Assembly: GCF_016097555.1 (NCBI RefSeq) | Contig: NC_054713.1 | Span: 39,668,128-39,732,127 of the forward strand | DNA: 64,000 bases | Origin: Gigantopelta aegis | Lineage: Eukaryota; Mollusca; Gastropoda; Neomphalida; Peltospiridae | Direction: 5' to 3' | Shown: one piece after another, positions 32,072 to 62,550 of the stretch | How the letters are laid out: the number at the start of each line of letters is the position of its first letter | How positions within the stretch are numbered: position 1 is the first letter of the stretch | The notes under the pieces: model-generated | What the model saw: the letters and a program-made list of their open reading frames with translations, nothing else | Told to the model about the DNA's origin: nothing | The model's database searches: none | Position numbers and translations under genes: made by a program

Positions 32072-32123
32072 ATGCAGGGAAACGTGTTATTGGTGATCAC
32101 TTTGTTTTGTCTTGGTGTTCAAG
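32072..32123 (+). CDS. Secreted EGF-ZP-PAN gene, exon 1 (signal peptide)
   Basis: ATG at 32072 begins MQGNVLLVITLFCLGVQG, a typical cleaved signal peptide. The exon ends in CAA-G before GTAAGG (phase 1), matching the phase of exon 2. A pyrimidine-rich 'attcttcag' 20 bp upstream of the ATG might be an acceptor for a leader exon. The product would be a secreted or cell-surface extracellular matrix protein. Confidence 0.75.
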
Positions 32124-32449
32124 GTAAGGTTTAAGGAAATGCGTCTTTAATTGTTCATTATCGAGACATTTTCATTTATTTTCATTTCAACTAATTTTCA
32201 TGTATCTTGTATGACGTCATACGGCAAATGCCTTACTAGTTTGACGATACTCGATTGGCTTACACAAAAAAAAAGAGGAATAAATAATGATTTTTCGACT
32301 ATTCCTGTAAGATTGCAGGATAAAAGAAATAACTGGCTACTGTCTTAAGATATCGGCTGTATCCTGCTCAGGTCGCTGCATTCGCCATTCTAACCTTCGC
32401 AGGATAAAGCCCATATCTTAAGACAGTAACCAGTTATTTCCTATATATG

Positions 32450-34640
32450 ATAACAGGCGGGGACTACTAAACGCGTATTGATTTATATGTTTACAGGCGG
32501 AGACAACTAAACGCGTATTGATTTATATGATTACAGGCGGAAACTACTAAACGCGTATTGATTTATATGATTACAGACGGAGACTACTAAACGCGTATTG
32601 ATTTATATGATTACAGGCGGGGACTACTAAACGCGAATTGATTTATATGATTACAGGCGGGGACTACTAAAGGCGTATTGATTTATATGATTACAAACGG
32701 GCACTACTAAACGCGTATTGATTTATATGATTACAGACGGGGACTACTAAATGCGTATTGATTTATATGATTACAGACGGGGACTACTAAACGCGTATTG
32801 ATTTATATGATTACAGGCTGGAACTACTAAACGCGAATTGATTTATATGATTACAGACGGGCACTACTAAACGCGTATTGATTTATATGATTACAGACGG
32901 GGACTACTAAACGCGAATTGATTTATATGATTACAGGCGGAGACTACTAAACGCGAATTGATTTATATGATTACAGACGGGCACTACTAAACGCGTATTA
33001 ATTTATATGATTACAGAAGGGGACTACTAAACGCGTATTGATTTATATGATTACAGGCGGGGACTACTAAACGCGAATTCATTTATATGATTACAGGCGG
33101 GAACTACTAAAGGCGTATTGATTTATATGATTACAGGCAGGGACTACTAAACGCGAATTCATTTATATGATTACAGGCGGGGACTACTAAGCGTGTATTG
33201 ATTTATATGATTACAGACGGGTACCACTAAACGCGTATTGATTTATATGATTACAGGCAGGTACTACTAAACGTTTATTGATTTAACGTGTATTGATTTA
33301 TATGATTACAGATGTGGACTACCAAACGTGTATTGATTTATATCATGACAAACGGGGACTACGAGTGTCAATAAATAATGAGCCACAATGCTGTCTTTAC
33401 ATTGCTGTCGTAATATATGCATATTAAGCATATTGGTTTGTATGATCAAAGGAGGGGACTACTAAACGTTTATTGATGTATATGATTACAGGCGGGGACT
33501 ACTAAACGTTTATTAATTTATATGATTACAGGCGGGGACTACTAAACGCGAATTGATTTATATGATTACAGACGGGTACCACTAAACGCGTATTGATTTA
33601 TATTTTACAGAAGGGGATTACTTAACGTGTATTGATTTATATGATTACAGGCGGGGACTACTAAACGTCTATTGATTTATATGATTATAGGCGGGACTAC
33701 CAAACGTGTATTGATGTATATCATTACAAATGGGGACTACTAAACGCGTATTGATTTATATTATTAGAGACAGGGACTACTAAGCGTGTATTGATTTATA
33801 TGATTACAGGCAGGAACTACTAAACGTTTATTAATTTACATGATTACAGGCGGGACTATTAAACGTGTATTGATTTATATGATTACAAGCGGGGACTACT
33901 AAACCTGTATTGATTTATATGTTTACAGATGGAGACTACTAAGCGTTTATTGATTTATATTATTACAGACTACTAAACGTGTATTGATTTATATGATTAC
34001 AGGCGGGGACTACTAATCGTTTATTGATTTATATGATTACAGGCGGGGACTACTAAAAAAAAAATTGTGTATTGATTTATATAATTACAAGCGGTGACTA
34101 CCAAACGTGTTATATTGATTTATATCATTACAGGAGTGAACTACTAAATGTTTATTGATTTATATGATTACCGGCGGGGACGACTAAACGCGTATGGATT
34201 TATATGATTACAGGTGGGGACAACTAAACGTGTATTGATTTAATGTGTATTGATTTATATGATTACAGGAGGGGACTATTAAACGCGTATTGATTTATAT
34301 CGTTACAGGCGAGGACTACTAAACGCGTATTGATTTATATCATTACAGGAGTGGACTACTAAATGTTTATTGATTTATATGATTACAGGTGGGGACTATT
34401 AAACGTGTATTGATTTATATGATTACATACGTGGACTACTAAACGTGTATTGATTTATATGAATAGAGGCGGGGACTACTAAACGTGTATTGATTTATAC
34501 GATTACAGGCGGAGACAACTAAACGTGTGTTGATTTATATGATTACATGCGGAGACAACTAAATGTGTGTTGATTTATATGATTACAGACGGGGACTAGT
34601 AAACGTGTACTGATTTGTTTTAATCTGTATGATTACTGTC
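32450..34640 (+). repeat. Intron-1 minisatellite made of the exon-2 splice acceptor (main block)
   Basis: About 54 units of 40 bp. Each unit contains 'ttgatttatatgattacag' followed by 'gcggggactactaaacgcg'. The first part is the 3' splice site of exon 2, and the following 'gcggggactact' equals the first bases of exon 2 (37862). Most units also contain TACTAAAC, like a branch-point consensus, about 30 bases before the next AG. Units differ by a few substitutions. Confidence 0.95.
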
Positions 34641-34702
34641 GGGCATTACTGACTCGTTTTTCTAAAAATTTAATCTCTAAAACATCTTATTGCATATAAG
34701 AC

Positions 34703-34738
34703 GCACACACACACACACACACACACACACACACACAC
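34703..34738. repeat. (CA)n microsatellite inside the intron-1 array
   Basis: About 18 CA units between array units; 2-3 more array units follow at 34741-34845. Confidence 0.9.
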
Positions 34739-59790: not shown

Positions 59791-60095
59791 AATTAATATA
59801 TTAAATATTATGACATTGTGTTTATCTCCTTTTAAAGACCATTTTGGTATCAAAAATAATTGTTTTTCTACAAACTTTATATCAATTTCAGTCACTAATT
59901 TATTCGTTAGCACTGAAATTTCATTCAAATGCACTAGAGGGTGAGGTCATAGTTTGATCTGTATTGTACGTTTTCTATCCCTCATGACAGCATATGATGG
60001 AGTCTTATAGTCTTACCATTACAATGTAAATAACTTTTGTTTTGCAGTTACACTATATATACATATATAAGACTGCCTGTATTGCTGTATTTCAG

Positions 60096-60238
60096 AAACA
60101 TCCATGAACAGAATATCAACAGTAGCGTTGACATCGACTCATCAGCTGTAGAATTTGAAATCAAGCAGAAGGACGGGACCCCTGTCTCCAGCTCCGCCGC
60201 TGTGTCTTTAGATAACCAGCTCGCCTTTGAGTTTGTCG
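60096..60238 (+). CDS. EGF-ZP-PAN gene, exon 6 (ZP linker and start of ZP-C)
   Basis: Phase 2 to 1 (143 bp), after 'gctgtatttcag'. It reads NIHEQNINSSVDIDSSA then VEFEIKQKDGTPVSSSAAVS and LDNQLAFEFVG. The EFEIKQKDG...A.VSLDNQLAFEF pattern is that of the inter-domain strand and first strands of ZP-C. The donor GTAAAA is weak. The last 17 bases and donor are iterated about 55 times downstream. Confidence 0.8.
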
Positions 60239-62275
60239 GTAAAACACAACAATGGGCTAACCTTTGAGTAAAACACAATAATGGATTCACCTCTGAGTTT
60301 GTCGGTAAAACACAACAATGGGCTAAACTTTGAGTAAAACACAATAATGGGCTCACCTTTGAGTTTGTCGGTAAAACACAATAATGGGCTCACCTTTGAG
60401 TTTGTCGTTAAACACACAATAATGGGGTCACCTTTGAGTTTGTCAGTAAAACACAATAATGGGCTCACCTTTGAGTAAAACACAATAATGGGCTCACTTT
60501 TGAGTTTGTCGGTAAAACATAATAATGGGCTCACCTTTGAGTTTGTCGGTAAAACACAACAATGGGCTAACCTTTGAGTAAAACACAATAATGGATTCAC
60601 CTTTGAGTTTGTCGGTAAAACACAACAATGGGCTAACCTTTGAGTAAAACACAATAATGGGCTCACCTTTGAGTTTGTCGGTAAAACACAATAATGGGCT
60701 CACCTTTGAGTTTGTCGTTAAACACACAATAATGGGGTCACCTTTGAGTTTGTCAGTAAAACACAATAATGGGCTCACCTTTGAGTAAAACACAATAATG
60801 GGCTCACTTTTGAGTTTGTCGGTAAAACATAATAATGGGCTCACCTTTGAGTTTGTCGGTAAAACACAACAATGGGCTAACCTTTGAGTAAAACACAATA
60901 ATGGATTCACCTTTGAGTTTGTCGGTAAAACACAATAATGGGCTCACCTTTGAGTTTGTCGGTAAACACACAATAATGGGCTCACCTTTCAGTTTGTCAG
61001 TAAAACACAATAATGGGCTCACCTTTGAGTAAAACACAATAATGGGCTCACCTTTGAGTTTGTCGGTAAAACATAATAATGGGCTCACCTTTGAGTTTGT
61101 CGGTAAACACAATAATGGACTCACCTTTGAGTTTGTCAGTTAAACACAACAATGGGCTAATCTTTGAGTAAAACTCAATAATGGGCTCACCTTTGAGTTT
61201 GTCGGTAAACACACAATAATGGGCTCACCTTTGAGTAAAATACAATAATGGGCTTACCTTTGAGTAAAATACAATAATGGGCTCACCTTTGAGGTTGTCG
61301 GTAAAACACAATAATGGGCTCACCTTTGAGTTTGTTGGTAAACCACAATAATTTGTTGGTAAAACACAATAATGGGCTTATCTTTGAGTTTGTTGATAAA
61401 ACACAAATATGGGCTCACCTTTGAGTAAAACACAATAATGGACTCACATTTGACTAAAACAATAATGGGCTCACTTTTGAGTCAAACACAGTAATGGGCT
61501 AACATTTGAGTAAAACAATAATGGACTCACCTTTGAGTAAAACACAATAATTGGTCCACCTATGAGTAAACCACAATAATGGGATAACCGTTGAGTAAAA
61601 TACAATCATGGGTTCACATTTGTGTAAAATACAATTATGGGCTAACCCTTGAGTAAACACAATAATTGGCCCACCTTTGAGTAAAACACAATAATGGGCT
61701 CACATTTTAGTAAAATACAATAATACGCTGGCCTTTGAGTTTGTTGGTAAAACACACTAACTTGTTGGTAAAACACAATAATGGGCTTTTCGTTGAGTAA
61801 AACACAGTAATGGCTCACCTTTGAGTAAAGCACAATAATGGGATAAATTGTTTGACTGTTTTAGTTTAACACATTAATGGTCCAAACTATGTTTATGGAC
61901 GCACCTTTGCGTTTGTTAGTAAAGCACAGTAATGGGCCAAACTGTTTAAGTTTGTTGGTAAAACACAATAATGGGCTAAACCCTTTAAGTTTGTTGGTAA
62001 ACCACAATAATGGGTTCAGTTTTGCGTTTGTTAGTAAAGCACAGTAATCGGCTCACCTTTGAGTTTGTTAGTAAAACACAATAATGTGCCCTATTGTTTG
62101 AGTTTGTTGGTAAAACACAATAATGTGACCTACTGTTTGAGTTTGTTGGTAAAACACACTAATGTGCCCTACTGTTTGAGTTTGTTGATAAAACACAATA
62201 ATGTGCCCTACATGTTTGAGTGTGTTGATAAAACACAATACTGAGCTAAACTGTTTGAGTTTGTTGGTGCAGTGT
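60239..62275 (+). repeat. Intron-6 minisatellite made of the exon-6 end and donor
   Basis: About 55 units, mainly 37 bp ('cacctttgagtttgtcg' plus 'gtaaaacacaataatgggct') and a short 29-bp form lacking 'tttgtcg'. A higher-order unit of 310 bp is visible (e.g. 'tttgtcgttaaaca' at 60401 and 60711). The first unit is the real exon-6 donor junction. Units become more diverged to the right. Frames on either strand within it are artefacts. Confidence 0.95.
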
Positions 62276-62307
62276 ATGTGATCTCTTTGTCATTTTTTTT
62301 TTCACAG

Positions 62308-62550
62308 GGAAACAAACGTGCACCTACAGAAAGTACCCGAAAAAGACCGGCAGCAGGACAGGGCTTTACGTAACAACTGTCGTCACAGATCTAGCATCGT
62401 GCGAGGCAGTCTGTACCAGTGATCCCACCTGTGTCTCCTTTGACTTCGTAGTGATGAATGGCATGATGGGATGCTTTAAGTACAACGAATCGGTTGTTGA
62501 CAGACTCATCGACACTTTTAATGACCATTATGAAAAAGATTGTAGTTCAG
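62308..62550 (+). CDS. EGF-ZP-PAN gene, exon 7 (PAN/apple domain)
   Basis: Symmetrical 1-1 exon of 243 bp after a strong polypyrimidine acceptor. It reads GKQTCTYRKYPKKTGSR, then VTDLASCEAVCTSDPTC, VSFDFVVMNGMMGCFKY and DHYEKDCSSG. Six cysteines with C-x3-C and the SFDF strand match PAN domains, which bind protein or carbohydrate. The donor is GTTAGT; the gene continues beyond the window. A PAN module after the start of ZP-C is an unusual order. Confidence 0.85.

Follow-up and report, generated by a model that had tools for sequence, protein, structure and literature searches.

Tandem repeats that straddle a splice junction have been described before, and the closest precedents are the "mirages" of amphioxus, minisatellite-like tandem duplications over the 5′ or 3′ intron-exon boundary of Adh3, the globin genes BflGb6 and BflGb9, troponin C and PGBD5 (PMC3087553, PMC3902484). 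Many, though not all, of the mirage units keep their AG or GT, regular splicing is reportedly undisturbed and array length is unstable. A related human case is the IFI6 (6-16) minisatellite, in which two downstream repeat units serve as splice donors, according to a paper citing Turri 1995. Other reports concern intron gain by tandem genomic duplication (PMC4974935; discussed in PMC3087553) and human segmental duplicates, in which internal variable tandem repeats at exon-intron boundaries alter the exon/intron structure of transcripts (PMC2812944). Among the titles and abstract openings listed in a search of the open-access literature, mirages turned up for amphioxus alone, plus the related human case, with no molluscan example. 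Here we describe a gene of the gastropod Gigantopelta aegis, three introns of which contain a minisatellite whose repeat unit spans a splice junction, at one acceptor and two donors. The gene lies in a stretch of 64,000 nucleotides (the window; C15:39668128-39732127 of the 1.149-Gb assembly), and its arrays are, in our judgement, likely mirage minisatellites, i.e., the outcome of recurrent tandem duplication over splice junctions that splicing has tolerated.

Three arrays across splice junctions of one gene

The host gene has 12 exons on the + strand over about 39.5 kb, with exons 1-7 in the window and exons 8-12 in the following 20 kb. It encodes a signal peptide, two EGF-like domains, a split ZP domain and two PAN domains. 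The ZP N-part corresponds to Pfam CUT_N (32.1 bits in a paralogue, cut-off 27), exon 7 by itself scores 22.9 bits as PAN (cut-off 21.4), and annotated relatives have the ZP C-part (PF00100) and, by eye, a C-terminal hydrophobic stretch. Since the second EGF-like domain occupies an exon of its own at 46985-47122, the array-bearing introns are numbers 1, 4 and 6 of 11. The features are as follows.

32072..32123, + strand: exon 1, signal peptide MQGNVLLVITLFCLGVQ, donor GTAAGG; its start resembles the annotated paralogue proteins P0001 and P0002
32428..34847, + strand: intron-1 array, outer block; 40-bp unit with the exon-2 acceptor TGATTACAG|GCGGGGACTAC; a CA run interrupts it near 34704-34738
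34848..37437, + strand: insertion splitting the intron-1 array, with an open frame at 35115-36683 that we take to be reverse-transcriptase-like
37438..37872, + strand: intron-1 array, exon-side block, reaching 11 nucleotides into exon 2
37862..37984, + strand: exon 2, first EGF-like domain
46985..47122, + strand: exon 3, second EGF-like domain
54743..54927, + strand: exon 4, ZP N-part (Pfam CUT_N), donor GACACG|GTCAGT
54902..55532, + strand: intron-4 array, 51-bp unit with the exon-4 donor; the most degenerate of the three
57366..57511, + strand: exon 5, end of the ZP N-part; in-frame TAA
60096..60238, + strand: exon 6, donor GTCG|GTAAAA
60220..62268, + strand: intron-6 array, 37-bp unit with the exon-6 donor, shortened units and a 310-bp higher-order repeat; occupies almost the whole intron
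62308..62550, + strand: exon 7, PAN domain

That one gene carries three arrays at its exon borders had been claimed in a sequence-only reading of the window, and both Tandem Repeats Finder and a probe scan confirmed it. The former placed repeats at 32444-34616, 34739-34847 and 37438-37871 in intron 1 (40/41 bp), at 54902-55208 in intron 4 (51/102 bp) and at 60219-62268 in intron 6 (37 bp, with higher orders of 66 and 310 bp). For the scan, which was ungapped, the exon-spanning unit of each junction was the probe, matches of at least 65% identity were counted and the authentic copy was included. It gave 64 copies in intron 1 of a 40-bp unit made of 29 nucleotides of intron end and the first 11 of exon 2, 9 copies in intron 4 of a 51-bp unit that joins the final 26 nucleotides of exon 4 to the donor region, and 33 full copies in intron 6, besides shortened ones, of a 37-bp unit in which the donor region follows the final 19 nucleotides of exon 6. 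None of the three probes matched anywhere in a further 48.7 kb of the window at the same threshold. The junctions are thus involved as had been supposed, but the arrays do not start exactly at the exon borders: they cross them, by 11, 26 and 19 nucleotides in exons 2, 4 and 6, respectively. An assembly artefact, which that reading had named as one way in which it could fail, is unlikely, because the units differ from one another and arrays are also present in paralogues assembled elsewhere.

The copy of the gene in the window may be decaying, as exon 5 has TAA where a 90% identical paralogue has GCA. Its annotated model, P0005 (LOC121389909), uses the authentic donors of exons 4 and 6 and skips exon 5, and its exon-4 part appears to be read in another frame.

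Distribution of the arrays among paralogues

The nearest relative, which we call C15b, is an inverted paralogue about 100 kb upstream (exon 1 near C15:39.599 Mb, as against 39.700 Mb for exon 1 in the window). The two proteins are 90-94% identical across the compared exons that precede PAN (synonymous divergence dS 0.077, nonsynonymous divergence dN 0.042), and C15b has all three arrays at the same junctions. Array length and copy number differ between paralogues; the intron-6 array, for example, is longest in the window (about 2.05 kb), followed by C15b (0.56 kb) and another C15 copy, L076 (about 0.41 kb).

Beyond this pair, each array has its own distribution. Of the 16 EGF loci, 4 bear the exon-2 acceptor array (C15 has three of these and C13 the fourth); the other 12 have no 40-bp array, and at least five of them (L064, L065, L067, L068 and L072) keep the same exon edge. 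The exon-4 donor array adjoins the donor at 7 of 12 ZP loci (two on C15, three on C12 and two on C11), and its unit is also found 2.7 kb downstream of the C13 exon and on contig C2237, on which exon-6-like and PAN matches are present. Of 13 exon-6 places listed, six were read, and three of these have no array (L077 on C11, L078 on C13 and L079 on C12); L077 and L078 keep the exon edge, and in L079 the exon end is longer. The C12 copies have, in addition, a 69-bp junction array at the exon-4 acceptor, with 11.0 copies in L012, 5.9 in L013 and a weaker 2.6 in L011.

Genome-wide searches with the units themselves allowed up to two mismatches for introns 6 and 1 and up to three for intron 4, thresholds that more diverged copies escape. 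The intron-6 unit was confined to three places, all on C15 (26 matches), and the intron-1 unit to C15 and C13, including a lone match at C13:30665316 (91 matches). The intron-4 unit gave 72 matches; besides C15, it is present in family loci of three further chromosomes, on contig C2237 and in two orphan arrays, C1:35583989-35584675 (beside L080) and C2:54429280-54430632 (beside L081). The reversed-pattern control gave 0 matches for each unit. No ZP exon is listed at either orphan array, and none was recognised in the roughly 300 nucleotides read beside each; they are candidates for moved arrays or for remnants of lost gene copies.

The overlap of unit and junction, together with the differing distributions, upholds the earlier view that the arrays are junction-derived and of separate origin, and unit divergence agrees with the paralogue distribution that they differ in age. 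The gene family has probably seen four or more origins of junction arrays, from exon edges that were already there. Because the intron-4, intron-1 and intron-6 units differ in their spread among chromosomes and paralogues, the three arrays of the window gene probably arose one after another. A strict order of origin was rejected, since the trees conflict on C13: an unrooted EGF+ZP tree puts it on the C15 side (support 68), as does an EGF tree (70), whereas a ZP tree groups it with the C11 copies L016, L017 and L019 and with C5211 (81). The order is compatible with the trees and unproven by them, and in the concatenated tree the C11 copies that have no intron-4 array would require a loss. Co-evolution of array and exon edge was dropped as well, as the consensus of the C13 array, GCTGGTACTAC, differs from that copy's own exon edge, GTGGGGACTAC.

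Comparison with C15b brought out further features of this pair. Exon 7 (62308-62550) is only 49% identical to its C15b counterpart, and P0002, annotated as isoform X2 of C15b, draws on a different PAN exon, which together suggest exon exchange or alternative PAN exons. Intron 1 of C15b has a further 8.3-kb array with a 177/365-bp unit (L027-L028, C15:39588543-39596806). C15b also has a 60-bp minisatellite (12.1 copies plus further blocks, at 40420-41538 when L023-L028 are joined and read on the reverse strand) that ends 20 bp before the exon-4 acceptor and does not cross it; related fragments occur at 50789-50964 of the window.

Proposed splicing past the arrays and origin of the duplications

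We envisage that an ordinary tandem duplication chanced to straddle a splice junction and that the array would then have grown within the intron by slippage or unequal exchange. Splicing would keep choosing the unit that adjoins the real exon, so that further copies would be mere intron and the mRNA unaltered, and for this reason the arrays are probably neutral. Under exon definition, the exon-adjacent copy alone would lie at the normal distance from the opposite site of the real exon, and duplications at junctions would be tolerated because this unit, the sole copy with a correctly spaced partner across the exon, is still the one used. In keeping with this, the annotation of all seven relatives returned (P0001-P0007) places the exon joins of the protein at the exon-most copy of whatever arrays the gene has. 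The choice matters, as use of a decoy site would be harmful: intron 1 has 51 TTACAG decoy acceptors, none of which leaves the frame open, and a stop starts at nucleotide 19 past the exon-4 donor and at nucleotide 27 past the exon-6 donor.

Minisatellites are common in the DNA sampled away from the arrays, 24 in 169,183 bp or about one per 7 kb (15 in 94,823 bp, 5 in 22,360, 3 in 20,000 and 1 in 32,000), in a non-random sample made up of PAN loci, the repeat-selected L002-L008, the 20 kb downstream (gene end included) and the first 32 kb of the window. The count omits periods below 20, arrays of fewer than 2.8 copies and low-complexity units, and thereby a 56-bp TCTG-rich array at 26835-27896; a 15-bp repeat of 2.9 copies at the start of the L032 PAN match was also left out. 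Samples from the family were kept apart from the 24 (EGF paralogues, 12 in 40,428 bp; window, 6 in 64,000; C15b, 9 in 60,000). A randomly placed seed whose unit is about 50 bp long has less than a 1% chance of falling over any particular junction. The expectation is 0.11-0.18 junction arrays per gene of 22 junctions, and the probability of three or more is 2e-4 to 8.5e-4 (0.0064 if 0.37 are expected); among 20,000 genes of 22 junctions each, chance alone would yield 4-17 of this sort, an overestimate if most genes have fewer. With minisatellites this dense, a junction-specific mechanism is not required by the data.

Such a mechanism, in which R-loops or polymerase paused at splice sites, for example, seed arrays preferentially at exon borders, is nonetheless the most serious rival, although an unlikely one. 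It would explain why a single family has four distinct junction arrays, at the exon-2 acceptor, exon-4 donor, C12 exon-4 acceptor and exon-6 donor, and why a further 48-bp array of 17 copies extends across the end of a PAN match that belongs to a different gene (L029, C14:56530560-56530790), but chance already predicts the numbers given above, and what the C14 array overlaps may be a stop codon and not a donor. Near misses exist, too: the C15b 60-bp array stops short of exon 4, and arrays at L063 and L074 stop about 51 and 33 bp ahead of the EGF match. Several observations do weigh against chance duplication with tolerance. Three junction arrays, or four with the C12 acceptor, in one family compare with at most 1 in 30 PAN exons at other loci, which hints at a preference. 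The corresponding Fisher test, post hoc for a case already picked, gives p 0.057 for 3 of 22 junctions versus 1 of a nominal 60, the PAN match ends not being proven exon ends, and earlier, equally post hoc counts with 11 junctions gave p 0.011, or 0.0016 with four arrays in 11. The spliced proteins P0001-P0007 are annotation models. Finally, C13 and C15 hardly differ in the intron part of the unit consensus, although their exons agree at 84 of 114 nucleotides (74%); averaging across many copies explains this, and so would constraint. The wider proposal that splice junctions are here the preferred seeding points of minisatellites, that this is an ongoing and general route of intron lengthening and that a splicing shield lets arrays survive old gene duplications strikes us as rather doubtful.

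Very unlikely, in turn, is selection of the arrays as splice-site decoys by which the output of the gene is lowered or tuned, an idea put forward in the sequence-only reading. Intact sites do abound in introns 1 and 6, with 40 occurrences of GATTACAG in the former (the authentic one included) and 17 each of GGTAAAA and GAGTAAAA in the latter, and the arrays are retained in diverged paralogues. Yet in these two introns, the ones examined in this respect, the splice dinucleotides, which many but not all units retain, are kept no better than neighbouring positions: in the outer block of intron 1 the A is kept in 52 of 53 units and the G in 44 of 53 (intronic mean 0.925), in the inner block in 9 and 10 of 10, and in intron 6 the G is kept in 52 of 60 units and the T in 58 (intronic mean 0.915). 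No selection for or against the decoy sites is visible there. Moreover, the intron-6 array varies widely in length, paralogues free of arrays exist and the window copy has its stop in exon 5. Recursive splicing, also raised at the outset, was rejected, as juxtaposed AG|GT is rarer than base composition predicts in all three arrays (3, 1 and 1 versus 13.8, 2.3 and 7.5 in introns 1, 4 and 6), and CAGGTRAG occurs 0 times in them. Least credible of all is that the units belong to a mobile or satellite repeat that inserted at junctions and furnished the exon edges. The orphan arrays of the intron-4 unit on C1 and C2 are what such a repeat might leave, but the exon edges occur in paralogues that have no array, and for introns 1 and 6 this origin was rejected, as the genome-wide searches with up to two mismatches found no dispersal.

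Other repeats in the window were also noted. Intron 2 contains three near-identical retroelement copies, head-to-tail at 39736-46733 with a period of 2389 bp, whose 739-amino-acid frame, split by a stop in the third copy, is presumably Penelope-like with a GIY-YIG-like end. Two minisatellites, at 11890-12418 and at 26835-27896, lie at no recognised junction; the former, with a 37-bp unit, is shortly downstream of a sequence at 10603-11822, in two frames, that we assume to be ligand-gated channel-like.

Comparison with described systems

The sequence-only reading knew of no described system of this form, but amphioxus mirages and human IFI6 are of the same kind. As in amphioxus, the snail units span the boundary (with 11, 26 and 19 exon nucleotides), duplication can affect the acceptor side (once in the window, with a further array in the C12 copies) as well as the donor side (twice), and in introns 1 and 6 the splice dinucleotides persist in many, but not all, units. 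Unlike the amphioxus cases, these arrays are in a gastropod, three occur in a single gene, they reach about 64 units as compared with 6 and 3 in the BflGb6 haplotypes, and they are common to paralogues on different chromosomes, a sharing that suggests an order of origin. In IFI6, as here, splice donors come from the units of a minisatellite at the end of an exon, although the seven annotated snail relatives use the exon-most unit only, rather than units downstream. As in intron gain by tandem genomic duplication (PMC4974935), the duplication carries splice signals, but here introns already present lengthen and no new intron is seen; and, as in the human segmental duplicates (PMC2812944), variable repeats lie at boundaries of paralogous genes, although the snail annotation shows no change in exon/intron structure. 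The junction arrays are therefore of a known kind, and are notable in that a single gene has several and that paralogues share them in a staggered pattern. The snail family makes directly countable whether junctions attract tandem duplication or merely tolerate it, and its arrays offer a natural series of decoy sites for studying exon choice.

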